Virus record (IMG/VR): IMGVR_UViG_3300028388_003712
Span: 1-43,076 of that record
Origin: a virus
DNA: 43,076 bases
Reading direction: 5' to 3' (one strand)
Part shown: positions 5,615 through 42,507 of the stretch, piece by piece
How the letters are laid out: the number at the start of each line of letters is the position of its first letter
Position numbering within the stretch: the stretch's first letter is position 1
Notes under the pieces: model-generated
The model's input: the letters and a program-made list of their open reading frames with translations, nothing else
Database searches by the model: none
Told to the model about the DNA's origin: nothing
Position numbers and translations under genes: made by a program

Positions 5615-5716
5615 TTTAACAGTCGTTTTTTATAGTTGTTAGCAAGCGCATGAGGCGCGTTTTCACGTCTCATGCGCTTGCATTACGTCTATTAAGACCG
5701 ATTAACAGACGTTATC
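5615..5716 (+). repeat. Dispersed element R1 (102 bp)
   Basis: The left end reads TTTAACAGTCGTTTTTT and the right end ATTAACAGACGTTATC, preceded by ACGTCTATTAAG. The middle is a perfect 13-bp inverted repeat (GCAAGCGCATGAG at 5642-5654 and its complement at 5669-5681). The right end supplies the TGA of the upstream minus-strand tail gene (TGATAACG), and the left end is 2-3 bases from the tape-measure start. It shares both ends with R2, R3, R4, R5, R7 and R8. Confidence 0.85.
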
Positions 5717-12221: not shown

Positions 12222-12323
12222 AAAAATAGTCTGTTAATTAGCCTTAATGGGCGTTTTGTGCCCCTCTATTACTGAAATCAGCGTTTTTTAGATTCATAAC
12301 GCACCTAAAAAACGTCTGTTAAT
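12222..12323 (-). repeat. Dispersed element R2 (102 bp, opposite orientation)
   Basis: Read on the minus strand it starts TTAACAGACGTTTTTT and ends CATTAAGGCTAATTAACAGACTA, matching R1 end for end. It is the only copy in this orientation. The left end supplies the TAA of the gene at 12319-12825 (GATTAACAG), and the other end is about 11 bases from the start of the protease-scaffold gene. The middle is unlike that of other copies. Confidence 0.8.
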
Positions 12324-17153: not shown

Positions 17154-17507
17154 TCAATCTAACAGCACGTCCAGCTTGAGCAGCTCGGCCTCGTCGTCGA
17201 GCGCTTTGAGCAATCCGTCGAGATCGCCCTGCGCCCAGGCTGCACGCTGTGCCTCGCGCAACATTGCCCAGATGCGCACCTTGTGCTTCTTCTTGGCCTT
17301 TATCTCGGTTGACCATAGCTGCTCCAAGAATTCAATGTCATAGCAAACATCTTCAAGGCTGTAAGGCTGGCCTTGTGGGTCGGAGACACCATTTTTGGGC
17401 AATGCCACAGTAATCTCGCGGGGGGATAATCCCCGCAGGTAGAGTGACGCCACCCGCAATCTACGTATATCGACATGTATCTCTGTTCTTTCTGTTTCCG
17501 AGGTCAT
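17154..17507 (-). CDS. Small HTH protein upstream of terminase genes
   Basis: 117 residues, ATG at 17507, overlapping the sugar-nucleotide dehydrogenase by 47 bases. Residues 15-60 look like a homeodomain-type HTH (RVASLYLRGLSPREITVALP, with a loop GVSDPQGQPYSLEDVCYDIE). The rest is a helical, charged segment ending in an acidic Leu-rich tail. It may be a second small-terminase component or a regulator. About 100 bases with no gene separate it from the next small-terminase candidate. Confidence 0.6.
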   Translation of the reverse strand: MTSETERTEIHVDIRRLRVASLYLRGLSPREITVALPKNGVSDPQGQPYSLEDVCYDIEFLEQLWSTEIKAKKKHKVRIWAMLREAQRAAWAQGDLDGLLKALDDEAELLKLDVLLD

Positions 17508-18720
17508 GGAGTTTGGTGAGGTCTATCACGTGTCCAGGTAAGTCGTCTATGTCTATACCGGCGACTAATTGCGGTTTGCACAATAGCCAACATTCAGCCC
17601 ATGACTGAATCTCGTCTATGTCATCTGTCAGCAATACCGCATAGTCACCGGCCGCAGCCGCAGAAACGTCGGGGTCATATACCCTAACGTTCCGTTCACT
17701 CATTAGTAGGTAATCAACTATCGTCGCGTAGGGGCTACCACGCAGGTCATCAGTGCGCAGTTTGAAGCTCAAACCTACTACAACGATGTTCTGCAATTCA
17801 GTATTCAAAGCCGCGTGAATGGCGCGCTGGATGCGCATGCCGTTGCTCAGTTGAATCGCGGCCAGCACAGGCGCGTCCACGTTGGCCATACGTAACAATG
17901 CAGTCAAATCCTTCGGTAGACAGGGACCGCCATAGGGTTCCCCTGGTCGAAGATAGGCGCCGGAAGCATTCAACTTAGTATCCTGCGCAACGATCTCCAT
18001 CAACTGGGCCGCATCCACGCCAACTTTAGCGGCCACGTCAGCCACCTCGTTGGCGAAAGCAATTTTGAGAGCGTGAAACGTATTGGAGACGTATTTCACC
18101 ATTGCGGCGGTGCGACAATCGGTGATTGCCACGGGCGCAGTCACACCGTTGTATAGCGAGACTACGTGCCCACCGGCACGGGTGTCAGATTGGCCAATCA
18201 ACGTATAAGGCGGATTGCGGAAATCATCAACCGCCGAGCCTTCGCGCAGGAACTCAGGGTTGACCACAAAGCCAAAATCCTGCCCCAACGTTTTGCCAGA
18301 TACGTGCTGCAACAAATCTTCGAGATTATATATCCAGGCAGGCGGTACCGTGCTGCGAATGACCACGACGTGATAACGCGCGTAATCATGTAGCACCTTG
18401 GCCACCCGCTCCAACACACAGGTCAATGTCGAAAGGTCAGCACTCCCGTCATCGTTTGGCGGGGTACCTACACAGATCAACGTCATATCGCTCTCAGCAA
18501 CAGCCGCTTGTAAATCGGTAGAGAGGCGCAGCCGCTTGGCCTTCAATGCTAAATCAAGCACGCCTTGGAGTTTCGGCTCATTAAAAGGGGCGCGCCCGTT
18601 AGCCAGCAATGACAGCAAGTCGCGGTCCACATCCACACCGTGGACCGTGTGCCCCTGCGCAGCCAGCACAGCCGCCGTCACCGCGCCAATATGGCCTAAT
18701 CCGATAACGGCGACCTTCAT
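17461..18720 (-). CDS. UDP/GDP-sugar 6-dehydrogenase (cargo gene)
   Basis: 419 residues, ATG at 18720 with AGGTG upstream. It has the N-terminal Rossmann motif GLGHIG (residues 7-12), the central STVPP, VNPEFLREGSAVDDF, the helix MVKYVSNTFHALKIAFANE with the catalytic Lys, and the active-site Cys267 in YGGPCLPKD. Near the end GLSFKLRTDDLRGSP is typical. The family oxidises UDP-glucose or GDP-mannose to the uronic acid using NAD; the GGPCLPKD form is closer to GDP-mannose dehydrogenase. All catalytic residues seem present. It lies inside the late operon, directly downstream of R3, so it would be expressed during virion production, perhaps to alter the host surface polysaccharide. Confidence 0.9.
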   Translation of the reverse strand: MKVAVIGLGHIGAVTAAVLAAQGHTVHGVDVDRDLLSLLANGRAPFNEPKLQGVLDLALKAKRLRLSTDLQAAVAESDMTLICVGTPPNDDGSADLSTLTCVLERVAKVLHDYARYHVVVIRSTVPPAWIYNLEDLLQHVSGKTLGQDFGFVVNPEFLREGSAVDDFRNPPYTLIGQSDTRAGGHVVSLYNGVTAPVAITDCRTAAMVKYVSNTFHALKIAFANEVADVAAKVGVDAAQLMEIVAQDTKLNASGAYLRPGEPYGGPCLPKDLTALLRMANVDAPVLAAIQLSNGMRIQRAIHAALNTELQNIVVVGLSFKLRTDDLRGSPYATIVDYLLMSERNVRVYDPDVSAAAAGDYAVLLTDDIDEIQSWAECWLLCKPQLVAGIDIDDLPGHVIDLTKLHDLGNRKNRDTCRYT

Positions 18721-18740: not shown

Positions 18741-18846
18741 ATTAACAGTCGTTTTTTTACTCATTTAAGACTCGTTTTTGTCCGTTAAATGCGTCTTTTT
18801 TTAATAAAGATGTCCGTTAATGCTGTTTAATAGTCGTTTTTGTATC
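18741..18846 (+). repeat. Dispersed element R3 (106 bp, diverged)
   Basis: The left end reads ATTAACAGTCGTTTTTTT. The right end (TGTCCGTTAATGCTGTTTAA, then TAGTCGTTTTTG) aligns to the consensus with several changes. The middle has several CGTTTTTG / GCGTCTTTTTTT half-site-like runs. It lies between the dehydrogenase start (20 bases away) and the stop of the gene at 18845, whose TGA overlaps the end of the element. It is the most diverged full-length copy. Confidence 0.7.
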
Positions 18847-20203: not shown

Positions 20204-20830
20204 TCAGCTCACAAATAGATTGAGTTGCGTGGATTCGTCACCGGCGCGCGGTTTACGTTTGCCCCAGCGCGGGGCATCGTTTTTACCGGCGCGCCATAGC
20301 GTTTCGGCACGCTCGCGATATGGATCCTCCACGTCAGCCTCATTCTCTAGTTGACAACCGACATCCACCCAGAAATCGAATCCCCCACGCCCCATTTGCT
20401 TCCCTTTGCGCGTGTGTTTGTCGTAGGCATAGTCAGGTATATCGCGCATCTGGTGAGCTTGTTGATCTTCGTAAAATTTCTGCGTAACGACACGCTGGAA
20501 GTGATCTGCCGTGCGCGCCTTGGGCGACCGGCACATCAACAAAATAGCGTTGGCCAAGATCAACCGGCACGTGCCGTCCTTGCCCAACGACCGGAACTCG
20601 AAAAACTGCGCGCGCAGGTGGGGCAGTTGGATCAGGATATCAGGGTTCGCTATGCCAATGTCCTCGTTACAGATAACCAGCAACCGCCGCCACAGATACA
20701 TCTCGTAGCGCGGCAATAGCTCCATTGCCCAGTACATTGCCTGCTCCTCATTGCCGCGCCGGATGTCCTTCTGTAACGCGCTAATGACCTCTCCCAGCAT
20801 GTAACCATCTTGTGTGTATATGTTGCCCAT
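20204..20830 (-). CDS. Stand-alone RarA/MgsA C-terminal-like domain protein
   Basis: 208 residues from the ATG at 20830 with CAGGAGG upstream. Residues 12-120 (ALQKDIRRGNEEQAMYWAME; WRRLLVICNEDIGIANPDIL; CRLILANAILLMCRSPKART) match the family pattern of the C-terminal oligomerisation domain of the replication-fork ATPase RarA (MgsA), with the hallmark SEDIG/NEDIG motif. The AAA+ ATPase part is absent. After about residue 120 a basic tail follows. It could interfere with or use host fork repair; alternatives cannot be excluded. It is preceded by regulatory repeat A. Confidence 0.7.
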   Translation of the reverse strand: MGNIYTQDGYMLGEVISALQKDIRRGNEEQAMYWAMELLPRYEMYLWRRLLVICNEDIGIANPDILIQLPHLRAQFFEFRSLGKDGTCRLILANAILLMCRSPKARTADHFQRVVTQKFYEDQQAHQMRDIPDYAYDKHTRKGKQMGRGGFDFWVDVGCQLENEADVEDPYRERAETLWRAGKNDAPRWGKRKPRAGDESTQLNLFVS

Positions 20831-20850
20831 ACAAACCTCCTGTATATTGT

Positions 20851-20928
20851 TTACGTCTCTCACTCTCCCACATTCAACTTTTGGTGTCAATCTCTAGAAC
20901 ATACGAGTTTTTCACCAGTTTTTAATAG
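20851..20928 (-). promoter_or_regulatory. Regulatory repeat, copy A
   Basis: About 78 bases shared with copies B and C upstream of other minus-strand genes. On the minus strand it contains AAAACTGGTGAAAAACTCG, then AGAGATTGACACCAAAAGTT and GAATGTGGGA. A consensus -35 (TTGACA at 20885-20890) is present but no TATAAT-like -10 at 17 bases, suggesting an activator or a different sigma factor. Confidence 0.7.
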
Positions 20929-21929: not shown

Positions 21930-21957
21930 TTGAACCTCCATAAAAGTGTATTTACTT

Positions 21958-22040
21958 AACGTCTTAATCTTCCCACGGTCAACTTTTGGTGTCAATCTCT
22001 AACAACAAGAATTTATCACCAGTTTTTCACCAGTTTGAAA
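21958..22040 (-). promoter_or_regulatory. Regulatory repeat, copy B
   Basis: It shares the block AGAGATTGACACCAAAAGTT and GTGGGAAGAT with copies A and C. Upstream on the minus strand are two direct repeats AAACTGGTGA spaced 11 bases centre to centre (one helical turn), a typical arrangement for a dimeric activator. It drives the zinc-ribbon gene and possibly the paralog pair. Confidence 0.7.
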
Positions 22041-22444: not shown

Positions 22445-22474
22445 CTCACGACCTCCTGTCAGAGTATTTGTTCA

Positions 22475-22558
22475 CAACGTCTTCATCTTCCCACGTGCAA
22501 CTTTGTGTGTCAATCTCTAACAACACGAATTTATCACCAGTTTTTCAACAGTGGAAAA
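22475..22558 (-). promoter_or_regulatory. Regulatory repeat, copy C
   Basis: Third copy of the block seen at 20851 and 21958: AGAGATTGACAC, then GTGGGAAGATGAAGACGTT. The upstream direct repeats are AACTGTTGA and AACTGGTGA. TTGACA is at 22508-22513. The 90 bases further upstream hold no gene. Confidence 0.7.
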
Positions 22559-24159: not shown

Positions 24160-24264
24160 ATTAACAGGCGTTTTTTAAATTAGATACTACCCCAAAAACG
24201 CCTCACTATATTAAAATTATATAACGGAAACGTCTTTTATGACCCGTTATCAGTCGTTATTTTC
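24160..24264 (+). repeat. Dispersed element R4 (105 bp)
   Basis: The left end reads ATTAACAGGCGTTTTTT. The right end reads AAACGTCTTTTATGACCCG and TTATCAGTCGTTATTTTC. An additional AAAACGCCT half-site lies inside at about 24193. It separates the excisionase-like gene (stop at 24275) from the tyrosine recombinase. Confidence 0.8.
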
Positions 24265-25173: not shown

Positions 25174-25210
25174 AAATACTAGCCATGTGGCTAGGGAGCG
25201 GATGTTCTAA
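25174..25210. repeat. 37-bp direct repeat, copy 1
   Basis: AAATACTAGCCATGTGGCTA and flanking bases recur at 26303-26339 with two mismatches. It holds a CTAGCC/GGCTAG hairpin that on the minus strand is followed by TATTT. It ends the gene at 25207 (its stop lies within) and precedes P1, so it looks like a terminator-plus-promoter unit. Confidence 0.8.
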
Positions 25211-25485
25211 CGAATAGCTTTTGCTGCTTCCAGTGTCAGCATAGCAACAGCCGTCTTAATTTCCTCAGTTGGCTCGACCGGATCATCGTTACCATCCCAG
25301 ATGCAGATTTCAGCATTTCGCCCGCTTGTAATGTTTACCTCATCCGCAGGTAAATTAGCTGCATAAGCTGCGTCACTTAATGCCGAGTCAATGTTCTCTT
25401 CCTCTTGTTCGATTCTGTCATCACTCCAACCTGTTAAAACCTGAATGGAACCATAACTAACCATAATCTCAATTTTGCTATACAT
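25207..25485 (-). CDS. Hypothetical small protein
   Basis: 92 residues, ATG at 25485 with AAAAAGGAGATAGCG upstream. Acidic N-terminal part (DDRIEQEEENIDSALSDAAY), then a beta-like segment (VNITSGRNAEICIWDG). Not recognised. It is last in the P2 operon and overlaps the gene before it by eight bases. Confidence 0.6.
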   Translation of the reverse strand: MYSKIEIMVSYGSIQVLTGWSDDRIEQEEENIDSALSDAAYAANLPADEVNITSGRNAEICIWDGNDDPVEPTEEIKTAVAMLTLEAAKAIR

Positions 25486-26302: not shown

Positions 26303-26339
26303 AAATACTAGCCATGTGGCTAGGGAGCAAATGTTCTAA
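26303..26339. repeat. 37-bp direct repeat, copy 2
   Basis: Near-identical to 25174-25210, including the CTAGCC/GGCTAG hairpin. It lies upstream of P2 and beside the AT-rich origin-like region. Confidence 0.8.
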
Positions 26340-26640
26340 TTTATAGAACGCCTACTAACTCTTTTTAATAGATATTTTTAAATATATATCTCTTATTCTA
26401 GAGTGTCTTTTTTATCTTTTCTTACCCCCCTCTATAGGATGTATTTGCACCCTGTATAACGTGTATATACACCTAATGTAATATGCACACAGTGTAGATA
26501 CGCATCCTGTTGTGTGTGTATTTACAATCCTCTGCACCAATCTAACTAGCAAGCAAAAAGCGGGCCGCTAACAACGGCCCGCTTTAGTGTGTTTCTTTAC
26601 GTGCAAATGCACCCTAACATACAGTGCTTTTACACCCTAT
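26340..26640. other. Candidate plasmid origin: AT-rich tract and iteron-like repeats
   Basis: There is no credible gene here. Bases 26360-26422 are very AT-rich, including TATTTTTAAATATATATC, suitable for unwinding. Short related repeats follow: ATTTGCACCCTGTATA (near 26442), GTATATACACCTAATGTA (near 26463), GTATTTACAATCC (near 26517), AAATGCACCCTAACATA (near 26605), TTTTACACCCTATTG (near 26630), with core TTRCACCCT. The replication initiator gene lies directly beside them. The iterons are imperfect and unevenly spaced, so origin function is inferred. Confidence 0.5.
26556..26584 (-). terminator. Terminator of the initiator gene
   Basis: A 10-bp inverted repeat AAGCGGGCCG / CGGCCCGCTT with a 7-base loop; on the minus strand TTTTTGCTTG follows. 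It lies inside the origin-like region, about 65 bases after the initiator stop. Confidence 0.85.
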
Positions 26641-26647
26641 TGGCATT

Positions 26648-27622
26648 TCAATGCCATAAATCAGGATCGTATCCCGCATCCTCAACACAGCGATCATGCC
26701 GTGTTTGCATACGATCTGGCAGCGTGGCAACTTGTTCTGGGGACAAGAACCCCAGATTTGTTTTCACGCTCACCTCGTATGTTTTGCGACTGCGTGTGCC
26801 ATGCACCTTGATGTGCGCAATGCCGGCTGCCTCTAATCGTTCGAGTAAACCTTGCTGGCGTCGATAGTATTTCGGCTCAGAGTCCTCTTCTCCATCAAAT
26901 GTGTCTTTGGCTTGACGCAAAACAGCATCAGGATGATCAGCTTCACATCGTCGCCAAACACCAGAAACAGTTTGACGCCCACAGCCAATATCTTCAGCTA
27001 GACGTGGTGCGCTATAGCGCTTCGGAGGCGTCCACTCTGTTTTACTACGCCGCTTGTCATCCTTAATAATTACCATCCAGCACTTCAGTGCATTTGATCC
27101 AAGATAGGCCCCCCAAAATACAGATTCATAATCGTGCACCTTGAGCCAGTCCCTGGATTTATCAAGCTCAGGCGAAATCCATTCTGATACACTGCCTTTG
27201 TTAACATCGTGTTCGCCACGCAGCTTATATATCTGCTGTTGCAGTAGCAGTAGTGTGTCCCGGTCACCAACCTTGTCAAGCAACGCCTCTAAAATCTCAG
27301 CAACACCGGCACTGGATTCTGCAGGAGCTGCTACTGCGGCCTCCACATCAGTATCATCAGGCAAGACGGCATCTGAATTTTCAACTACATACCGAATGCA
27401 CGCTATCGTATCGTCCAGTCGACTCATCGTCCTGGCGACTACGCCATTAAGACGATTCTCCAACCAATCTGCGGCATGCTCATTCTTGACATTGACAATG
27501 AGCGTACCATCCTCAATGCCAGTGGCCTGCGTGCCGCGCAGCCATGCATCGAATGTACTACCCACCATTTGACCTCGGAGATCATTCAATGCCTGTTGCC
27601 ATAAATCCTGTGGTGATGTCAT
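26648..27622 (-). CDS. Replication initiator with DnaA domain-I-like N-terminus
   Basis: 324 residues; the ATG overlaps the TGA of the gene upstream. Residues 7-60 (LWQQALNDLRGQMVGSTFDA, WLRGTQATGIEDGTLIVNV, ADWLENRL) match the N-terminal domain I of DnaA, which recruits DnaB helicase. There is no AAA+ domain. An HTH lies around 200-225 (SAPRLAEDIGCGRQTVSGVW) and a second winged-helix-like region at 255-290. The layout (helicase-recruiting head, double winged-helix body) suits an iteron-binding plasmid initiator. It sits next to the AT-rich repeats. Confidence 0.75.
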   Translation of the reverse strand: MTSPQDLWQQALNDLRGQMVGSTFDAWLRGTQATGIEDGTLIVNVKNEHAADWLENRLNGVVARTMSRLDDTIACIRYVVENSDAVLPDDTDVEAAVAAPAESSAGVAEILEALLDKVGDRDTLLLLQQQIYKLRGEHDVNKGSVSEWISPELDKSRDWLKVHDYESVFWGAYLGSNALKCWMVIIKDDKRRSKTEWTPPKRYSAPRLAEDIGCGRQTVSGVWRRCEADHPDAVLRQAKDTFDGEEDSEPKYYRRQQGLLERLEAAGIAHIKVHGTRSRKTYEVSVKTNLGFLSPEQVATLPDRMQTRHDRCVEDAGYDPDLWH

Positions 27623-27865: not shown

Positions 27866-29212
27866 CTAATTTTTGCTGAAATTTAGCCATGATTTGACCT
27901 TCCTGTAGGCTTCCCCGCCACTATAGCCGAAAAGCTCTTGCTCAATCTGCGTTTGGCTACGGCCCTGCGCAGCTAGCGCGCGCGCACGGGCCGCCAAATT
28001 CGCCTCATCATTCTCTGTCGTCGGCATAGCAGCCCGTGGTTCGCCACCGCGCATCGCATTAGTAATCTGCGTTCGGCCAATGTATGGCGTCTGCATCTCT
28101 ACCAACCCGCTACCCGGCAGTCTGGCCAACGCACGTCCCTTGGGATCGGTGGGCAGATTCTCCGCACCTGGCGCGCCCAATAGCACGCGCGACTGAGCTG
28201 CATTGTGGGCGCGGAATTGCACCCGCGTAGACAACTGATTGCGGATAGCACTGTCTAAGCTAGTAGCCTTCCAGTCCTGGCCTGCCAGCACGACCCACAG
28301 GCCATACTTCCGCGCGCGCAAGGTCAGCGTCTTGAGCGCATTTTCCACGTCCCTGTCGCCCAATAACGCGGTACCCTCGTCAATGATGGTGACGATGGGG
28401 GCCAACGGCTCGTTGGCTTGCTGATTGTAAAGGCTCAAACTATCAACACCAGGGAAGCGATTAAATAGCGATTTGCGCCGGTTCAACTCGTCCTGTGAGA
28501 GTGCAGATAGAACTGCCACCGCATCCTGCTCATTGTCAGCGAGTGGATACAGGAGCCGGTCACTGGTGGCAAAGGGGGCCAGTGTCACGCCCTCCAAATC
28601 AATGAGCACCAACTCCGGTTGCTCGCGGGCGATAGCTAGCTGGTAGGCCAGCGCGCGCAAGAACACGCTCTTCCCGAAGCCAGAGGAGCCACCTACGGCG
28701 ACATGGACGAGCTTCTCCATCGCGCCGTGTACCACGTGCTGGTGGCCGCTATCATCCACTGTTACGCCAAGGACGAGGTGGTCGAGGCTGACTACCTCTG
28801 GCAGCAGTTTGGGGAGACTGACGGTTCCAGGCCACGGAAGCGGCTGCTCATCCATATCTAGCGCGGGTGCGTCACGTGGTTGCGTACCAATACAGCCTCT
28901 AGCTGCTGCAGCAACCTGTGCGGCTGGCGGATTCACATTCGCCCATGTGCCACCACCTACCAGGGGGAATAATCCATCGTTAGCCGGGATGCGCCTGTGC
29001 GTGATTTGGTAGAGTGCGCTCACACTCACCCACGCCCCTGCAACCAGTGCCGTCCCCAGTCCAGCCACTACTACGCATCCTACTACGCGCGTAGTGACCG
29101 CGAGCGCTACTGTAGCGCTCTGCACCTGCGGCGCTGGCGTGCGTGGCGTGCCGATTACCAGCATCGCGACTAAGATTATTACACCTGCAACTCCAACCAT
29201 TTGCTTTTCCAT
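27866..29212 (-). CDS. FtsK/SpoIIIE-type DNA translocase
   Basis: 448 residues, ATG at 29212 with GAGGTG upstream. Two N-terminal membrane segments (about 6-20 and 43-64), then a cytoplasmic motor. Walker A is GGSSGFGKS at 174-182; Walker B VTIIDEG at 274-280; LIDLEG near 203-208 is a further conserved strand; a sensor-like GLWVVLAGQD follows near 307-316. The C-terminal 50 residues contain an HTH (AAQGRSQTQIEQELFGYSGG). Family members pump double-stranded DNA. It may help segregation or transfer of the plasmid form; no relaxase or other conjugation gene was seen. Confidence 0.88.
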   Translation of the reverse strand: MEKQMVGVAGVIILVAMLVIGTPRTPAPQVQSATVALAVTTRVVGCVVVAGLGTALVAGAWVSVSALYQITHRRIPANDGLFPLVGGGTWANVNPPAAQVAAAARGCIGTQPRDAPALDMDEQPLPWPGTVSLPKLLPEVVSLDHLVLGVTVDDSGHQHVVHGAMEKLVHVAVGGSSGFGKSVFLRALAYQLAIAREQPELVLIDLEGVTLAPFATSDRLLYPLADNEQDAVAVLSALSQDELNRRKSLFNRFPGVDSLSLYNQQANEPLAPIVTIIDEGTALLGDRDVENALKTLTLRARKYGLWVVLAGQDWKATSLDSAIRNQLSTRVQFRAHNAAQSRVLLGAPGAENLPTDPKGRALARLPGSGLVEMQTPYIGRTQITNAMRGGEPRAAMPTTENDEANLAARARALAAQGRSQTQIEQELFGYSGGEAYRKVKSWLNFSKN

Positions 29213-29539: not shown

Positions 29540-29821
29540 CTAGAACATCGAATCCAGCAAATCGGCAGCTTCCGCGTCTACGTCGCCGCCTTCCTCAACC
29601 GGTGCATTATTATCAGCGATCCGCACATGTGCCAATTCCTCGCGGATGACAGCGCGCAACTGCTGATATGTCACCGGCCGCGTCGGGGCAATGGAATCGC
29701 GGATTGCCTCACGCACCGCAGCAGATTTGTTATCCTGCCGCTCCAACCAGGCTATAATCTCCGCATCACGGTCTGGATGCAGGATGACCTGGACTCTCAC
29801 GTAATCGTCTTTATTGCACAT
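29540..29821 (-). CDS. ParR-like ribbon-helix-helix protein
   Basis: 93 residues. The N-terminal 45 residues have the ribbon-helix-helix pattern: strand YVRVQVILHP, helix DRDAEIIAWLERQDN, then KSAAVREAIRDSI. The C-terminal tail is acidic and would contact an actin-like filament. It lies directly after a ParM-like gene, and a strong inverted repeat (29829-29881) precedes its start. In type II partition systems ParR binds such repeats and links them to ParM. No good ribosome-binding site is seen. Confidence 0.7.
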   Translation of the reverse strand: MCNKDDYVRVQVILHPDRDAEIIAWLERQDNKSAAVREAIRDSIAPTRPVTYQQLRAVIREELAHVRIADNNAPVEEGGDVDAEAADLLDSMF

Positions 29822-29828
29822 AAGCGTA

Positions 29829-29881
29829 TTGTGTAAAAGTTACACAACTCCCATTTTTCCAGTTGTGTAACTTTTACACAA
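29829..29881. promoter_or_regulatory. Inverted repeat at the parM-parR junction (operator/centromere candidate)
   Basis: TTGTGTAAAAGTTACACAACT (29829-29849) and its exact complement (29861-29881) are separated by 11 bases. Each arm is itself nearly palindromic (TTGTGTAA-AAG-TTACACAA), so there are four half-sites. The stop of the ParM-like gene lies in one arm and the ParR-like start is eight bases from the other. A likely ParR binding site serving as operator and possibly centromere. Confidence 0.75.
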
Positions 29882-30899
29882 CTGCGAACTTGCGCAGTGC
29901 GTAACGATAGAAACCTGTAGCGTTTGCCAGTTGCGGGTCATCAGTGATAATGCGCGCGTGTTTGTATACCTGCTCGAAATACGTCCGCAGGGGATGCGCT
30001 CCCCCGCCAGTGAGCAGGATAACGGCGAAATCATTACCGTCTCCCCACAGGGTTTTGGCGGTGCCAGTAACGGCCTCGGCGACGGCACCTAGCGCGTGCG
30101 TGACGATCTCGTCTATATTCCGCAACTCGCCGTCAATGCGTATCTGCGCACCGCCAGCGGTTGAATTCCTCACTACATCCTCAGCCGCGCGGAATGACAG
30201 TTCGCGACCGTATTTCTGGTAAACGCCTTCGACAACGATTTCGTAGACACGCGCCATACCTACTGGTGTGCTGCCGGACCGTCCTTCGGTATAGCGGGGG
30301 CCAGGTGCAATTGCCAAATAGTTCGTATTGTGCGTGCCGATGTCAGCGACGGCGACGTGCTCGTTGCGAATCTCGGCAGGGTCTGTCAATTCCCCCACCG
30401 AGTTCAGTAAAACACGGAAGTATGTCCCAAATGCCTCTGGTACTACTACTACGTTGGCAATCTCAACCGTGTGATGTACATTAGCGCCTTGCAAGCTGTG
30501 TGCTGTGAATACGTGCTTGCCATTGAGCATCTCGGCCAGATTGTTCTTATCCTGCGCATACCAGCGAATTGGTAGGCCAGTAATCAAACTCACCTGGCCA
30601 TCGCGCACACCTACCCGATAGAGTGCCGATAATGCCAAGGGCAGTATCACGTTCTCGGCGCGGCCACGCGCACGCGGCTCGATGACTAAATCAGGCTGGT
30701 GGAGGCGTGCCGTCTCCCCCACGAACCATTGCTGCCCGTTGACGGTCATCTGGTGATGACCGTTGACGTTAGCAAGGTCACTCTTATACGCAACTTGTAA
30801 CGCCGGTGCAATGCAGCTCTCAAATACAGCCGATTGCTCGCCGTTCACAGCTTTCGTCCATCCATACCCAACATTCAAACCTATCCTGTAATCCATCAT
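29874..30899 (-). CDS. ParM-like actin-family ATPase
   Basis: 341 residues from the ATG at 30899, with AAAAGGAGCTA directly before; a longer frame overlaps the ParB-like gene and was rejected. Actin-fold motifs: phosphate 1 IGLNVGYGWTKAV (residues 6-18), phosphate 2 VADIGTHNTNYLAI near 195-208, and adenosine motif VILLTGGGAHPL near 300-311. The length matches ParM/Alp proteins. The filament pushes plasmid copies apart through ParR. It overlaps the ParB-like stop by one base, so the two are co-translated. Confidence 0.82.
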   Translation of the reverse strand: MMDYRIGLNVGYGWTKAVNGEQSAVFESCIAPALQVAYKSDLANVNGHHQMTVNGQQWFVGETARLHQPDLVIEPRARGRAENVILPLALSALYRVGVRDGQVSLITGLPIRWYAQDKNNLAEMLNGKHVFTAHSLQGANVHHTVEIANVVVVPEAFGTYFRVLLNSVGELTDPAEIRNEHVAVADIGTHNTNYLAIAPGPRYTEGRSGSTPVGMARVYEIVVEGVYQKYGRELSFRAAEDVVRNSTAGGAQIRIDGELRNIDEIVTHALGAVAEAVTGTAKTLWGDGNDFAVILLTGGGAHPLRTYFEQVYKHARIITDDPQLANATGFYRYALRKFAVV

Positions 30900-32932
30900 T
30901 AGCTCCTTTTGATTTTTAATTTTAATTCCCAGGGCTTCACAAATTCCTTGGGATAATCTAATTCGTATGGTTCGCTTAAATACTTGAATTGCAGCATATA
31001 CCAACGCTGCCCGTTTCCCGATGGATCCTTAAGGTATCTAATACCCATCGTGTGCATGGCGCGATATTCCAACCGAGCCACTTCAATCAACTTCGCGACG
31101 CCGCTATCGCCCCCCAGATCCTCCCAGCGGTCGCGCACGAAGCGCGCCATTTGCTGTGTATTGCCGCCTGAATTGACGTCCCAACCATAGTCTAGCCAAG
31201 AGGCCAATGCATTGTGAATCAGCGTGTTACCGCCGAACATGTTAGGGCCGTGGCCACAGATTGCTGACAGCCATTTTGTGACCATCGCAATGTACCCGTT
31301 GAAATCCATGAACAGAGTTGTAGATATTTTGGGTAGCTCGCGGTAGGCGAACGCCTCGCAACGAGGTAGCACCATGCCATTTTCACCAATCAGCAGGCCA
31401 TAGTGTGGCGCGCGCGTACCTTGCCCAAAACGCTTCTGTACTGGGTCGCGAACCAAACGACAGGGGGGAAGATCCTCCATCTCGTACATTGGTGCGTAGA
31501 AGCGGCATTTTTGGCAAGCGTGCGCCTGCGGGTGGCGATACCAGTCAACCCGCAGATTCTCTACATAGCTCCAGTATTCCTGCATCTCAGGTATGTGCCT
31601 GGCTTGCAGCTTATCCTGATACTGTGCGCTACGTGCGTTTTTGTTGCGGATTGCATCCTGCATGACTTCCACATACGCGGCGACATCGTTCATGTAATAT
31701 CCAACGTCGGTTGAATACAGTGCGTGTTCTTTGACACTATGTTCACTGCCGTGGCGGACAGGAATAACTACCGGGTCATCTTCCCCAATATACCCGTCGC
31801 ACGTCGTGAATTTATTTGGTGCGTCCTTGACCCAACGTCCACAATGCACCTCAGCGGGGCCAGCCCCGATAATTGAATGCAGGTAGAACTGGCAATTTTC
31901 ACACATGCGTCCCGCAGCCTGCGCGTGCGCCTTCCACATCGTGTTAAACGGTGTCGCGTATTTGTAGCGATTGTCGAGTGCTGCCAGCACGGCGCGTACA
32001 TATTCCGGCATCCCCACAATAGATATAGGTTGCTTTCTCAAATAATTGCTTTCACGCACACCATAGGTGCGCAGCTCAAGCACGCGCTCAGCTACCTGTT
32101 GTAGATCAGCCTGCTCGACAGCCTCTCTAATCATGCGCAGGCGATTATACTCTTGTGGCCTGTAAACTTTCCCGCCAGCACATGGCAGCCAACGACCGGG
32201 GCTCAGGAACGTCTTGATTTCACGCACCAACCCCTCAAGTTCTCTGGTAGTCATATTGCGTGATTGCTCGACCAGTGCCCCCTGTAGCTCCTGGGGGGCG
32301 CTAGCGAAAGCGCGCGCCCCGGCGAATGTCAACTCGCCAGCTTCCAGAGCTTCCTGGACGGATTCTCCGAGATTCAGCAGGCTGAGCCGTTGTGCTACAT
32401 AGCCCTGCGACTTGCCAAGTCGCTCGGCTAGCTCCCGTTGGCTCCACTCGTAATCGTCGATCAAAGATTGGAACCCGCGCGCCTCTTCCAGGGCGGTGAG
32501 CTGCTGGCGGTCGATATTCTCTGTGATGGCCAGCAGATGTAACTCGTTCATATCGTCGGCACGGTAGATTTTGGCGCGAATGGTTGAGTGCGAGTCGCGT
32601 AGCGATTTTAGCTCATTCTCTCCCAGACCAGTGATGCCGACGTTGGCCAGGCGACGAACCCAGTTCTCGAACGTTTGATTCGGGAAGCGGGAACTGAGCG
32701 CAATCGCAATCCTACAGCGGGTACGACGCTCACCCGCGATCAACTCATAGCCATATTGACCGTCTTGCTTAAAAACGAGTATCTCATTGATGAGACCACG
32801 ATCACGGATAGATGTCGCTGTCTCAATCAGTGCGTCTTCGTCGAAGCGTTGGCGCGGTTGCCAACGCGACGGTCGAATTGTATAGAGGGGAATCTCCCCA
32901 ACTGAAAACGGTAACTCAGAATTAACAGTCAT
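30899..32932 (-). CDS. ParB-like protein with long Cys-rich C-terminal extension
   Basis: 677 residues. The ATG at 32932 lies inside element R5. The N-terminal ParB/Srx domain has IRPSRWQPRQRFDEDAL and ELIAGERRTRC; the HTH follows near 160-200 (WSQRELAERLGKSQGYVAQR, LSLLNLGES). ParB proteins are normally about 300 residues; here more than 350 extra follow. This part has two similar Cys clusters, CENCQFYLHS...CGRW...CDGY and CQKCRFYAPM...PPCRLV...PRCEAF, likely metal sites. No ParA ATPase is present; the operon instead continues with ParM- and ParR-like genes. Whether it acts in segregation, as a nuclease or as a regulator is open. Confidence 0.8.
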   Translation of the reverse strand: MTVNSELPFSVGEIPLYTIRPSRWQPRQRFDEDALIETATSIRDRGLINEILVFKQDGQYGYELIAGERRTRCRIAIALSSRFPNQTFENWVRRLANVGITGLGENELKSLRDSHSTIRAKIYRADDMNELHLLAITENIDRQQLTALEEARGFQSLIDDYEWSQRELAERLGKSQGYVAQRLSLLNLGESVQEALEAGELTFAGARAFASAPQELQGALVEQSRNMTTRELEGLVREIKTFLSPGRWLPCAGGKVYRPQEYNRLRMIREAVEQADLQQVAERVLELRTYGVRESNYLRKQPISIVGMPEYVRAVLAALDNRYKYATPFNTMWKAHAQAAGRMCENCQFYLHSIIGAGPAEVHCGRWVKDAPNKFTTCDGYIGEDDPVVIPVRHGSEHSVKEHALYSTDVGYYMNDVAAYVEVMQDAIRNKNARSAQYQDKLQARHIPEMQEYWSYVENLRVDWYRHPQAHACQKCRFYAPMYEMEDLPPCRLVRDPVQKRFGQGTRAPHYGLLIGENGMVLPRCEAFAYRELPKISTTLFMDFNGYIAMVTKWLSAICGHGPNMFGGNTLIHNALASWLDYGWDVNSGGNTQQMARFVRDRWEDLGGDSGVAKLIEVARLEYRAMHTMGIRYLKDPSGNGQRWYMLQFKYLSEPYELDYPKEFVKPWELKLKIKRS

Positions 32933-33022
32933 TTTTCAACCTTCTTATTTGTGCCCTAGCTAGCTCCATAGCGTCAATTTCATTCTAAAAACGTCTGTTA
33001 AAGTCCCTTATTAGACGTTATA
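32921..33022 (+). repeat. Dispersed element R5 (102 bp), containing a start and a stop codon
   Basis: The left end is ATTAACAGTCATTTTTCAAC; the right end is AAAAACGTCTGTTAAAGTCC and TTATTAGACGTTATA. Relative to consensus CAGACGTTTTT, the left end has a G-to-A change that creates the ParB-like ATG on the minus strand. The right half encodes the last eight codons and TAA of the gene at 32998. Confidence 0.85.
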
Positions 33023-36684: not shown

Positions 36685-37077
36685 ATGACTTACGTAAAAT
36701 TTTCAAATTCTCAAAAACTGCGTATGAAGAAACTTCTTCATATGGAGTACACACGCCGGGAGCTTGCGCAGGAATGTGCGTGCTCGTTCAACCGGATTCA
36801 GCAGGCTATCGATGCTGGCTGTCCCCATCGTCACAGCGGGGGGCGAGTCTACGTCGTCGGCGATACATTCGCGGACTGGGTAGCCAACCAGCTAGAGCCG
36901 GGAACGCAATCGTTGGGGGAGGGCGAAGCGTGGTGCTTTCGCTGCAATGCTCCCCGTCGGATGGTCAACATTCGCGTTGCGGACAATCCGCAACCGGGTG
37001 TAGTGCGTTTAGAGGGGGAGTGTAGCGAATGTGGAATGACCGTCAACCGTTACACATCTCAGGAGGCCAACTCATGA
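36685..37077 (+). CDS. HTH and zinc-ribbon protein preceding integrase
   Basis: 130 residues from the ATG at 36685; GGAGG lies 10 bases upstream (a TTG six bases earlier is an alternative). Residues 18-60 form an HTH (YTRRELAQECACSFNRIQQA, then a basic wing); CFRC near 84 and CSEC near 113 make a zinc site. It overlaps the integrase start (TCATGA), so the two are co-translated. Probable recombination directionality factor or repressor of integrase. Confidence 0.75.
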   Translation: MTYVKFSNSQKLRMKKLLHMEYTRRELAQECACSFNRIQQAIDAGCPHRHSGGRVYVVGDTFADWVANQLEPGTQSLGEGEAWCFRCNAPRRMVNIRVADNPQPGVVRLEGECSECGMTVNRYTSQEANS

Positions 37078-38150
37078 AGCGGAAGCCTACTGACCTCATT
37101 TCCCGTCGCAACTACTCCGACACTCGCGACTATCTGCGCTACTGTCTGGAAGTGCGTCAAAACGGTAAGCGTTCTGTTGAACTTTATCGCGTCTCCCTCG
37201 ACCATCTGCTTCGGTGGTCTACTTCGGTGCTCTTCTCCCAAGTCCCGCAGCTACGACCGGTTTTTCCAGTCTATGTAGCTGACCTGGATGTCGGTTTCGA
37301 GCATCAGAAGAAAATTCTCTCAACTACGAGACGCTTCTTCGAGTGGGCCTTGGGGCGGTGGCCTGGTCGCTACGATGTGAGCAAACTGCCACCGGAGTGG
37401 ATTGCGACGCTACAACCGACTAAGCCACCTGAAGAAGTGCCTGTCGAGACCGACTTCTATTCCCTCGATGAGGTGCTCGCGCTATGCAGCCTGCCGACGC
37501 CGACGCTCAAAGCTAAGCGGGATCAGGCGGCGATTGCGCTGCTCTTCCTCAGCGGGATGCGCTCTGGGGCGCTCTGTACGCTGCCCCTGGAAGCGGTGGA
37601 CCTCAGTGTGGGTAGTGGGCGCATTCGTCAATGGCCGGCTTTGGGGGTCCGCACTAAGGGCGGTAAGGCGGCCAACACTTGGCTATTACAAAATGGTGAA
37701 CTGCATACGCTTCGGACAATCTGTGTATCTTGGTTTGAATGCGCCCACGAGGCCCTGGGCAATCGCGGCATGTGGTATGCCTTGCTCACGCGGTCAGGTA
37801 AGTTCGCGGAGATTCAGGAACCGGCCCCCAGCCGACCGTCTAATCTCAGACGGACCCTGAAGTCAATGTGTGAAGCGGCGGGTGTCGAATATCGCCGCCC
37901 CCATTCTCTGCGTCATGCTCATGCTGTCTATGCTCTGTCTAAGTGCGCGAGCCTCGATGAGTTTAAAGCCGTGTCGCAGAACTTGATGCACTCGACGATG
38001 ACGACGACGGATGCGGTGTATAGTCAGATGCTCGATGACCAGGTAGCGGATAGAATTGCGAACCTGGGAACGCAAGTGCAAGATGAGCGTGTAAACCAAC
38101 TTATACGTGAGCTGTTCAAGTCTTCGGAGCTTAGAAAGCTGCTCGCGTGA
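37074..38150 (+). CDS. int: Tyrosine-type integrase
   Basis: 358 residues from the ATG at 37074 with CAGGAGG upstream. N-terminal arm and core-binding domains span about 1-115. Catalytic residues: Arg163 in LFLSGMRSGALCTL, a Lys in the GVRTKGGKAANTW hairpin, HSLRH (His277, Arg280), His306 in NLMHSTMTTTD and nucleophile Tyr316. The attP-like tRNA-Asn fragment lies 140 bases downstream. Gene order int-attP is typical. It likely integrates the phage at a tRNA-Asn gene. Confidence 0.92.
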   Translation: MKRKPTDLISRRNYSDTRDYLRYCLEVRQNGKRSVELYRVSLDHLLRWSTSVLFSQVPQLRPVFPVYVADLDVGFEHQKKILSTTRRFFEWALGRWPGRYDVSKLPPEWIATLQPTKPPEEVPVETDFYSLDEVLALCSLPTPTLKAKRDQAAIALLFLSGMRSGALCTLPLEAVDLSVGSGRIRQWPALGVRTKGGKAANTWLLQNGELHTLRTICVSWFECAHEALGNRGMWYALLTRSGKFAEIQEPAPSRPSNLRRTLKSMCEAAGVEYRRPHSLRHAHAVYALSKCASLDEFKAVSQNLMHSTMTTTDAVYSQMLDDQVADRIANLGTQVQDERVNQLIRELFKSSELRKLLA

Positions 38151-38171: not shown

Positions 38172-38221
38172 AAATAGGACTTGAACTCACAACCTACAGG
38201 TTGCAAGTCCAAGTCCTATTT
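38172..38221. terminator. Large hairpin after integrase
   Basis: AAATAGGACTTG and its complement (38210-38221) enclose an inner CAACCT/AGGTTG hairpin. It ends 70 bases after the integrase stop, and a short T-run (TTTAAA) follows on the plus strand. Terminator and/or integrase arm-site structure. Confidence 0.65.
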
Positions 38222-39667: not shown

Positions 39668-39770
39668 ATTAACAGACGTTTTCTAATGCAATTACAAGCA
39701 CTTAAACGGCACAAATACGCGCGTAATAGAGGCGGAAACGTCTATTAAGGCCTCTTATTAGACGTTATTC
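39668..39770 (+). repeat. Dispersed element R7 (103 bp)
   Basis: Left end ATTAACAGACGTTTTCTAAT; right end AAACGTCTATTAAGGCCTCT and TATTAGACGTTATTC. The middle shares ATACGCGCGTAAT with R8. It precedes the anchored-nuclease gene by 27 bases. Confidence 0.85.
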
Positions 39771-39796: not shown

Positions 39797-41710
39797 ATGA
39801 ACTACAAAGCGAAAGACAATGAAACCAACATACAATGTCTCATTTGTGGGGTTGGCGAACTAGAGCGCCAACCTGGTGCTCAAAAACTAAAAGGCTTATT
39901 CATCCACTACGACACTCTGGTTTGTCCACATTGTCAAGCGCAAGCCGAAACCAACAAAGGCAAACTGCGTTATACTCTCATCCCGGCCCCATATAGCACC
40001 ATTATCAAGCCAGCGGTCGGCTTCATCACTCCCGATGCCGCTGCTGATTTTGGAAAAAAGGCCCGCGATTTCCTTAAGCAACGCGCCGCTATTGAAGCGC
40101 AGGATACAAGTGCATGTATTCCACATGTGGAGCTCAAGAGCAACGAAACTTGTCTATACAACCTGCAACGTCCGTGCGTGTTACAAGAAGCCCGCACCAA
40201 GCAGGGAAACGTGAATTGGGTTAACATCGCCAAAGGCCCTATTACCCTCACTGACAAACGTATTTACATCGGTGATCGAAACATTCCCCTCAACAAAATC
40301 CAATCCGCTGTGCTTGGCCAGCGCTATATGCTTAATATCACCCGCTCGGACCGCAAACGGGAATTGCGTATTCCTCTACCGGATGCTCAGCGGGCGCACT
40401 TGTTCATCCTTGCCTTAGCCCAACAGATTCCTGAAATTATCACTCCGCCACAGCTAAGCTCGCAGGCATCACAACAATCTCCATCCCCCTACCGCTTCAA
40501 TGCCACATTACCTATTCCTATTCCACTGGGTAAAGAAAGAAGCATTAGATTACCTGCCATCGTTATTGTCATCATCATTGCCCTTTTACTGCTATGCTGC
40601 TGCTGTAGCATTACTATGCTAGGCACTCCGACACCAACACCTAGCCCTTTCCCCACCAGTGCTGCCACGATTACACCCGCGCGTACAGCGACATTAGCAC
40701 CGCTAGATACTGCCACCACAGCCCCAACCGAGACACCCGCGGCGACAGCTACCACCGCCGCCACAGATAAGCCTACACCTACATCCACCAATACACCCAC
40801 GGCAGAGGTTGATTCAACATCTGAACGCGAAACAGCAAGAGTCATTCGCGTTATTGACGGCGACACTATAGAGGTACAAATTGGAGAGCAAACTTACACC
40901 GTTCGTTATATTGGCATAGATACACCAGAGACGGTACATCCTAGCAAGCCCGTTGAATGGATGGGACCAGAGGCATCAGCAGCCAACAAAGAACTGGTAG
41001 CAGGAAAAACCGTCTACTTGGAAAAGGATGTGTCTGAAACTGACCAATATGGCCGGCTACTGCGCTATGTCTTTTTAGAGGACGGCACCTTCGTTAATGC
41101 TGAACTGGTCCATCAAGGCTACGCACAGGTGAGCACCTATCCACCTGACGTGAAATATCAAGAGCACTTCCTGGAAATGCAACAAGAGGCCCAGAGCGCG
41201 CAGGCTGGCCTATGGCAATCTACACCTACAGTAATGCCTACGGAAACTATCATTCCCTCCACGGCAACACAGTCCCCCCCCACAGCGACACCACAACCAA
41301 CTGTAGCTCCCACACAACCACCACCCACAGTAGCTCCCACGCAGCCACCGCCGACTGCGGCTCCCACACAACCGCCTGCGGCCCCTGGAAAAGTAGAAAT
41401 CGGATATATCTTCTACGATGGCGTCGTCACGCGAGTAGAAAGCGACGAGTATGCCGTAATCAGGAATACAGGTGGCTCTCCTGTGAACCTAGCCGGTTGG
41501 AGGCTCAATGCTGGCGATCCTGGACAGGACTTTATCTTCCCTGGATTTGAATTACAACCCGGTGCTGAGGTTCGCGTCTACACAAATGAATCACACCCTG
41601 AGAGTGGCGGCTTCAGCTTTGGTAGTGGACAAGCTATATGGGCTAACAGTGGTGACTGTGGATACTTATTCGACAATACTGGCGCGCAAGTATCTCAATA
41701 TTGCTATTAG
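39797..41710 (+). CDS. Membrane-anchored thermonuclease with lamin-tail domain
   Basis: 637 residues, ATG at 39797 with AAAAGGAGAAACT upstream. Domains: N-terminal zinc ribbon (CLIC at 14-17, CPHC at 43-46); PH/GRAM-like beta domain about 140-210; membrane helix 252-275 ending in CCCC; Thr/Pro linker 277-345; staphylococcal-nuclease domain 346-475 with RVIDGDTIEV (Asp354/356), Arg370 and Asp375/Glu378 in VRYIGIDTPE, and Arg420 in DQYGRLLRYV, so catalytically complete; Pro/Thr repeats 495-528 (PTVAPTQPP units); lamin-tail-like domain 531-637. The nuclease would face outside the cell. Roles could be DNA degradation for nutrients or exclusion of incoming DNA. Flanked by R7 and R8. Confidence 0.88.
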   Translation: MNYKAKDNETNIQCLICGVGELERQPGAQKLKGLFIHYDTLVCPHCQAQAETNKGKLRYTLIPAPYSTIIKPAVGFITPDAAADFGKKARDFLKQRAAIEAQDTSACIPHVELKSNETCLYNLQRPCVLQEARTKQGNVNWVNIAKGPITLTDKRIYIGDRNIPLNKIQSAVLGQRYMLNITRSDRKRELRIPLPDAQRAHLFILALAQQIPEIITPPQLSSQASQQSPSPYRFNATLPIPIPLGKERSIRLPAIVIVIIIALLLLCCCCSITMLGTPTPTPSPFPTSAATITPARTATLAPLDTATTAPTETPAATATTAATDKPTPTSTNTPTAEVDSTSERETARVIRVIDGDTIEVQIGEQTYTVRYIGIDTPETVHPSKPVEWMGPEASAANKELVAGKTVYLEKDVSETDQYGRLLRYVFLEDGTFVNAELVHQGYAQVSTYPPDVKYQEHFLEMQQEAQSAQAGLWQSTPTVMPTETIIPSTATQSPPTATPQPTVAPTQPPPTVAPTQPPPTAAPTQPPAAPGKVEIGYIFYDGVVTRVESDEYAVIRNTGGSPVNLAGWRLNAGDPGQDFIFPGFELQPGAEVRVYTNESHPESGGFSFGSGQAIWANSGDCGYLFDNTGAQVSQYCY

Positions 41711-42329: not shown

Positions 42330-42410
42330 ATGACAGAGTGGGTAATTAAATTAAGGACTGAACCGGAACCTCTTCCTCAGCCATACGCTTCCTTTATATA
42401 CAGGAATTAA
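42330..42410 (+). CDS. 26-residue ORF ending in R8
   Basis: ATG at 42330 with AAGGAGTAG at ideal spacing. The product MTEWVIKLRTEPEPLPQPYA... ends with a TAA formed by the left end of R8 (AATTAACAG). Good site and spacing make translation plausible; function unknown. Confidence 0.45.
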   Translation: MTEWVIKLRTEPEPLPQPYASFIYRN

Positions 42411-42507
42411 CAGACGTTTTTCAACGCGCTTAAAGAGGATGAAAACGCCTCCATACGCGCGTAATCGTATGTAAAACGTCTGTTAATACCCATTATCAGT
42501 TGTTATC
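42406..42507 (+). repeat. Dispersed element R8 (102 bp)
   Basis: Left end ATTAACAGACGTTTTTCAAC; right end TAAAACGTCTGTTAATACCC and ATTATCAGTTGTTATC. Left arm TTAACAGACGTTTT and AAAACGTCTGTTAA are perfect 14-bp inverted repeats. It lies between two convergent genes and supplies both stop codons. Confidence 0.9.

Follow-up and report, generated by a model that had tools for sequence, protein, structure and literature searches.

A likely self-contained ParMRC-like module beside a ParA-less ParB-family protein on a phage contig

The window analysed here is the whole of a 43,076-base viral contig (IMGVR_UViG_3300028388_003712). Its actin-like ATPase gene and the ribbon-helix-helix (RHH) adaptor gene that follows are likely to constitute a type II (ParMRC-like) partition module complete in itself, in a phage with a probable plasmid phase, and to stand beside a separate ParA-less, cysteine-rich clamp protein of the ParB family. 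These are probably two neighbouring systems, as opposed to one hybrid machine.

Results

Identity of the contig and of the three genes

The window contig was linear, had no end repeats and may be incomplete. Tailed-phage genes were present, encoding terminase, portal, protease and tape measure proteins. Relatives of the terminase were found on four further viral contigs (71-73% identity) and in Anaerolineae/Chloroflexi genomes (51-67% identity); these sequence relationships point to Anaerolineae (Chloroflexota) as the most likely host group. All three genes of interest were on the minus strand, with ParB first, then the actin-like ATPase (ALP) and last the ParR-like adaptor:

30899..32932, minus strand: ParB-family protein, 677 aa, with ParB_N (11-75), HTH_ParB (143-240) and a C-terminal extension of ~430 aa
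29874..30899, minus strand: actin-like (ParM-like) ATPase ALP, 341 aa, whose ATG at 30899 overlaps the ParB stop codon (TAATG)
29829..29881, no strand: candidate centromere/operator, a perfect 21-bp inverted repeat with four TTGTGTAA half-sites
29540..29821, minus strand: ParR-like RHH adaptor, 93 aa, with a conserved C-terminal tail (LLDSMF)

ALP matched the ALP_N (E=2.3e-24) and MreB-like_C (2.3e-9) domains and the PHROG 'partition protein' family (2.2e-47), and its closest solved relatives were pCBH ParM (profile match 5.8e-25) and other ParMs. The listed ALP reading frame began at a TTG at 31004, from which it would overlap the ParB gene by 105 bases. Because the ribosome-binding site and the alignment to a relative both pointed to the ATG at 30899, the start was placed there, and the overlap therefore amounts to one base. 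The overlap of the ParB-like and ParM-like genes described in the earlier note was thus real, but not over the 105 bases listed. ALP had the actin-type ATPase of a ParMRC motor, with the phosphate-2 Asp and the Gly-rich motif conserved, except that Asn replaced the phosphate-1 Asp, a residue present in 37 of 41 aligned sequences. This Asn occurred in both phage ALPs (window 29874-30899 and locus L011 5079-6080), as did a Glu in the PQPFG motif where the other aligned sequences had Gln.

No Pfam match was obtained with the single 93-aa adaptor sequence. When a 23-member adaptor profile was used, it matched the RHH domain of NikR at 1.2e-5 and structure 2q2k, which we take to be the pSK41 ParR-centromere complex, at 3.2e-4; six of the 23 family members matched RHH_1. 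The single-protein structure model was poor (AF2, pLDDT 48) and could not be used for structure searching. As in ParMRC systems, the small adaptor gene was located directly downstream of the motor gene, its RHH fold being assigned from profile matches only. The gene identities proposed in the earlier note, ParB-like (HTH_ParB, ParB_N), ParM-like (ALP_N, ParM structures) and ParR-like (RHH profile), were all borne out.

Conservation of the ALP-adaptor pair

When viral contigs were searched with ParB or with ALP, using one protein or two sequences as the query, only one relative was recovered, the 72-kb contig IMGVR_UViG_3300037504_000618. On one strand it carried ParB, about four small genes, ALP, a ParR-like gene, a small gene and a DnaA_N gene, so ordered, with 2.3 kb between ParB and ALP. 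Identities to the window proteins were about 35-37% for ParB, 50-52% for ALP, 38% for the ParR-like protein and 49% for the DnaA_N protein.

Relatives of ALP were present in 39 of the 396 Anaerolineae genomes scanned, and 40 ALP neighbourhoods were inspected, 38 of which had at least 400 bases downstream of ALP. A small RHH-like adaptor gene followed ALP on the same strand in 36 of these 38 loci (23 by profile at E<0.05 and 13 by inspection). ParB was found in none of the 40, at least 5 kb of upstream sequence being available in 20 of them. ALP and the adaptor are therefore a unit of their own, and in these phages ParB has been added to it. The earlier suggestion that two systems had been merged was not upheld, since the ALP-RHH pair stands without ParB in all 40 loci and has its own candidate centromere; the separation of ParB from ALP in the 72-kb relative also argues against a merged machine. 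The proposed search for the same triad found ParB beside an ALP-adaptor pair in none of the Anaerolineae loci.

Candidate centromere

The four TTGTGTAA half-sites in the gap between ALP and the adaptor gene were the only exact copies in the window. Symmetric repeat arrays occupied the same gap in many other loci, similar in layout and different in their words, for example GGTATTAAC/GTTAATACC in L066 and AGTAATACTTTTTC/GAAAAAGTATTACC in L088. In a shuffle test, inverted repeats were significant (p<=0.05) in 17 of 41 ALP-adaptor gaps and non-significant in the other 24; of the stretches upstream of ALP, 1 of 41 was significant. This pattern fits a site between the two genes that the adaptor would bind, and the 21-bp inverted repeat of the window is a good candidate for a ParR-bound centromere, although it could instead be an operator only. 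The ParMRC systems of R1 and pSK41 have their centromere repeats upstream of parM, unlike the window, where the repeats lie between motor and adaptor genes.

Replication genes and lifestyle

Three features were identified downstream of the adaptor gene:

27866..29212, minus strand: FtsK/SpoIIIE-like ATPase, between the ParR-like and DnaA_N genes
26648..27622, minus strand: DnaA_N-domain protein, a probable plasmid-type replication initiator with a homologue beside the same module in the relative
26435..26640, no strand: iteron-like CACCCT repeats, a candidate origin located beyond the DnaA_N gene and headed by a TTCTTACCCCCCnCTATAGG block

The DnaA_N gene adjoined the module in both phages and was near ALP in some bacterial loci, and the TTCTTACCCCCCnCTATAGG block followed by CACCCT repeats was common to both phages when read by eye. 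The FtsK/SpoIIIE-like gene was absent from the module of the 72-kb relative. Given the conserved DnaA_N protein and the shared iterons, a plasmid phase of the window phage is therefore likely. Phage-plasmid features in the window comprised the terminase, portal, tape measure, a Rep-like gene and the iterons; the contig was linear and no lysogen was seen. Two tyrosine recombinases were also encoded, which makes phage integration possible.

Beside the candidate origin, a block of small genes was flanked by a 44-nt repeat (GCCATGTGGCTAGGGAGC, copies 89% identical, at 25174-25217 and 26303-26346). Directly behind the integrase gene at 37029-38150 was a 24-nt inverted repeat resembling a tRNA T-arm (38172-38221); it was unmatched in 346 Anaerolineae genomes, and its reading as a tRNA-type attP was rejected.

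ParB-family protein

The ParB protein matched HTH_ParB (E=1.9e-21) and ParB_N (E=1.3e-13), and Spo0J and Noc were its closest solved relatives. Its CTP-binding motifs (GERRTR and ENIDR) were intact and the HTH domain was present. Within the C-terminal extension were two four-cysteine motifs (344/347/364/378 and 473/476/491/525), all eight cysteines being conserved across both relatives found. This region of ~430 residues had no Pfam match above cutoff, its predicted structure was too poor for structure searching, and its type was encountered in one of 396 Anaerolineae genomes. The KorB domain model (PF08535) scored 20.3 bits on the protein, below its cutoff of 22.3.

Neither the window nor four relatives gave a PF13614 match to indicate ParA, a result that applies to a linear contig that may be incomplete. 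The PF01656 matches were all sub-cutoff; in the window they fell within the FtsK-like gene and the gene for the sugar-nucleotide dehydrogenase. No ParA was found in the 72-kb relative. The LG[RKM]GL-type ParA-binding motif was absent from all three ParBs examined, and canonical chromosomal parS or Noc-type sites did not occur above chance within the window. The earlier observation that no ParA is seen was therefore sustained for the sequence available. Compared with a type I (ParABS) system, the ParB CTPase and HTH domains were present and the ParA partner and parS/Noc-type sites were not. On the basis of its motifs and of the dispersed sites described below, ParB would probably act as a DNA-organising or regulatory clamp, similar to KorB or Noc.

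Two related phages encoded a shorter second ParB-like protein (frame of ~350 aa; L009, G004:41452-41946, and L008, G003:19556-19834). Both ranked among the weakest matches to ParB.

Dispersed composite elements

The window contained a composite element in seven copies, at 5616-5713, 12226-12322, 18742-18838, 24161-24258, 32922-33019, 39669-39766 and 42407-42504, situated between tandem genes. An element consisted of one 12-bp half-site (AACGTCTGTTAA, inverted) and, 67-68 bp on, two more copies of this half-site arranged as a 12-6-12 dyad; the start-to-start spacings of 67-68 bp and 18 bp were fixed. The middle was variable and partly palindromic, often with an internal TTACGCGCGTAA palindrome, and predicted folding varied between copies from strong to absent. 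The element was also found in four related phage contigs (G001-G003 and G004) and in none of 20 shuffles; the strict pattern occurred in none of the 396 Anaerolineae genomes. One copy overlapped the start of the ParB gene:

32922..33019, no strand: composite dispersed element with three 12-bp half-sites, overlapping the ParB start, a possible operator

In the relative, no such copy preceded parB. The recognition-helix regions of ParB were almost identical in two phages that have a common half-site. The earlier note had named dispersed elements as possible ParB loading sites; the elements do exist, and ParB, a repressor or the recombinases are candidates for what binds them. Their inner ends (TAA-N6-TTA) had a dif-like look. 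They may be integron attC or XerCD sites, but all seven 6-bp spacers differ, which makes exchange between elements unlikely.

Other features of the window

A UDP-glucose/NDP-sugar dehydrogenase gene (17461-18720), possibly a host-surface metabolic gene, adjoined the terminase region. A 637-aa protein (39797-41710) combined a staphylococcal-nuclease domain with a lamin-tail domain, and a 228-aa protein (20204-20890) matched the C-terminal part only of the MgsA AAA+ ATPase family. Related repeats at 20866-20896, 21945-22034 and 22463-22552 (up to ~90 nt at 86% identity, with TTTTTCACCAGT motifs) were located between small genes.

Discussion

The ALP and RHH genes, together with the inverted repeats between them, would make up a self-contained ParMRC-like module. 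The phage that carries it would be temperate and probably spends part of its life cycle replicating as a plasmid. The RHH adaptor is predicted to bind the repeat array in the ALP-ParR gap, and its conserved C-terminal tail may cap or feed ALP filaments, whose growth would separate phage DNA copies or move them to replication sites, as with AlpAC of prophage CGP3. ParB, although co-transcribed in the window, would act apart from this module, as a CTP-dependent clamp on DNA that has no ParA partner and whose C-terminal region is rich in cysteine. Its most likely role is to organise or regulate the phage DNA in the manner of KorB or Noc, and not to be the adaptor of ALP. A functional link between the two is possible, given the translational coupling in the window and the presence of a phage-type ParB near a phage-type ALP in both phages.

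Parts of this arrangement have precedents. The ParMRC systems of R1, pSK41 and pCBH likewise have an actin-like ATPase gene followed directly by an RHH adaptor gene, and cis repeats; they differ from the two phage ALPs at the phosphate-1 position. A large plasmid ParB with a ParM-like partner is found, as a loose precedent, in the PRTRC cassette (plasmid ParB-related, ThiF-related). The PRTRC protein D model matched ALP (1.5e-21) and the PRTRC_parB model matched ParB (2.4e-14), both far under their curated cutoffs (76.7 of 214.8 bits and 52.8 of 278.6 bits, respectively), and on these cutoffs membership of the window genes in PRTRC was rejected. The ThiF, B, C and E partners were absent from the subset of window ORFs scanned with NCBIfam. 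A PRTRC locus on a Pseudomonas plasmid held ParB, E, C, B and ThiF, with no annotated actin-like D nearby.

Phage precedents also exist. Bacillus phage B83 is a temperate, siphovirus-type phage that combines ParM, an RHH adaptor, iterons, Rep and XerC/D recombinases; unlike in the window, the iterons precede parM, and ParB goes unmentioned in the available part of its description (PMC6669507). The AlpAC-alpS system of prophage CGP3 similarly combines an actin-like protein of phage origin, an adaptor that binds DNA, and repeated sites, but has the adaptor gene first and the alpS repeats upstream of the operon, again with no mention of ParB in the portion of the report available (PMC4446434). 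For the ParB half, the precedent is KorB of plasmid RK2, a ParB-family CTP clamp that acts on dispersed operators and achieves silencing from distally placed OB sites (PMC11790492). Unlike the window ParB, that protein has IncC as its ParA partner; its operator also differs.

A true hybrid, in which ParB clamps loaded at dispersed sites are pulled through ParR by ALP filaments, is very unlikely. The TAATG coupling of parB and alp, the position of all three genes on one strand within 6 kb in both phages and the dispersed element at the parB start would suit it. The ALP-ParR pair is nevertheless found alone in the Anaerolineae loci, the candidate centromere lies between ALP and ParR, the ParB-ALP gene spacing is not conserved, and the parB of the relative has no upstream copy of the start element. 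We regard as highly improbable that ParB hitch-hikes, pairing with the ParA of the host chromosome to position the phage DNA. Its ParB fold is intact, and SGI1 is reported as a mobile element that hijacks the parABS of its IncC helper (PMC10954446); both the missing ParA-binding motif and the chance-level parS and Noc-type sites speak against such pairing.

As another alternative, the ALP-ParR pair could act, as AlpAC does, in the positioning or replication of DNA during the lytic cycle, and not in plasmid segregation. This is unlikely: AlpA and AlpC are required for efficient CGP3 replication (PMC4446434), and the window has two integrase-type recombinases, but homologous ALP-ParR pairs occur on many Anaerolineae contigs, some beside a DnaA_N-domain gene, and the gene order of AlpAC is the reverse. 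The remaining alternative specifies the ParB half of the two-system reading. ParB would act as a global regulator like KorB: after loading at the composite elements it would slide and shut down phage promoters, that of its own gene among them. We hold this tentatively, as a real possibility. The intact CTP-binding and HTH motifs, the seven elements of fixed geometry in 43 kb, the matching recognition-helix regions and the KorB precedent favour it, whereas the sub-cutoff KorB domain score, an element layout unlike known ParB sites (a 12-6-12 dyad plus a third half-site at a distance of 68 bp), and the phage recombinases or a repressor as possible element binders do not.

A fuller version of the two-system reading, which is rather doubtful, would have the ParA-less ParB, its cysteines perhaps holding a metal or Fe-S centre, load at the approximately seven composite elements and set expression and DNA shape, with the co-transcribed ParM-ParR pair moving the DNA. 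If true, the phage splits ParB work from motor work. To our knowledge, partition has been little studied in Anaerolineae and their phages, where modules of the actin type are common and have a centromere that is apparently intergenic. A ParB with intact CTPase motifs and no ParA, encoded beside an unrelated DNA motor, offers a test case for ParA-free clamps.
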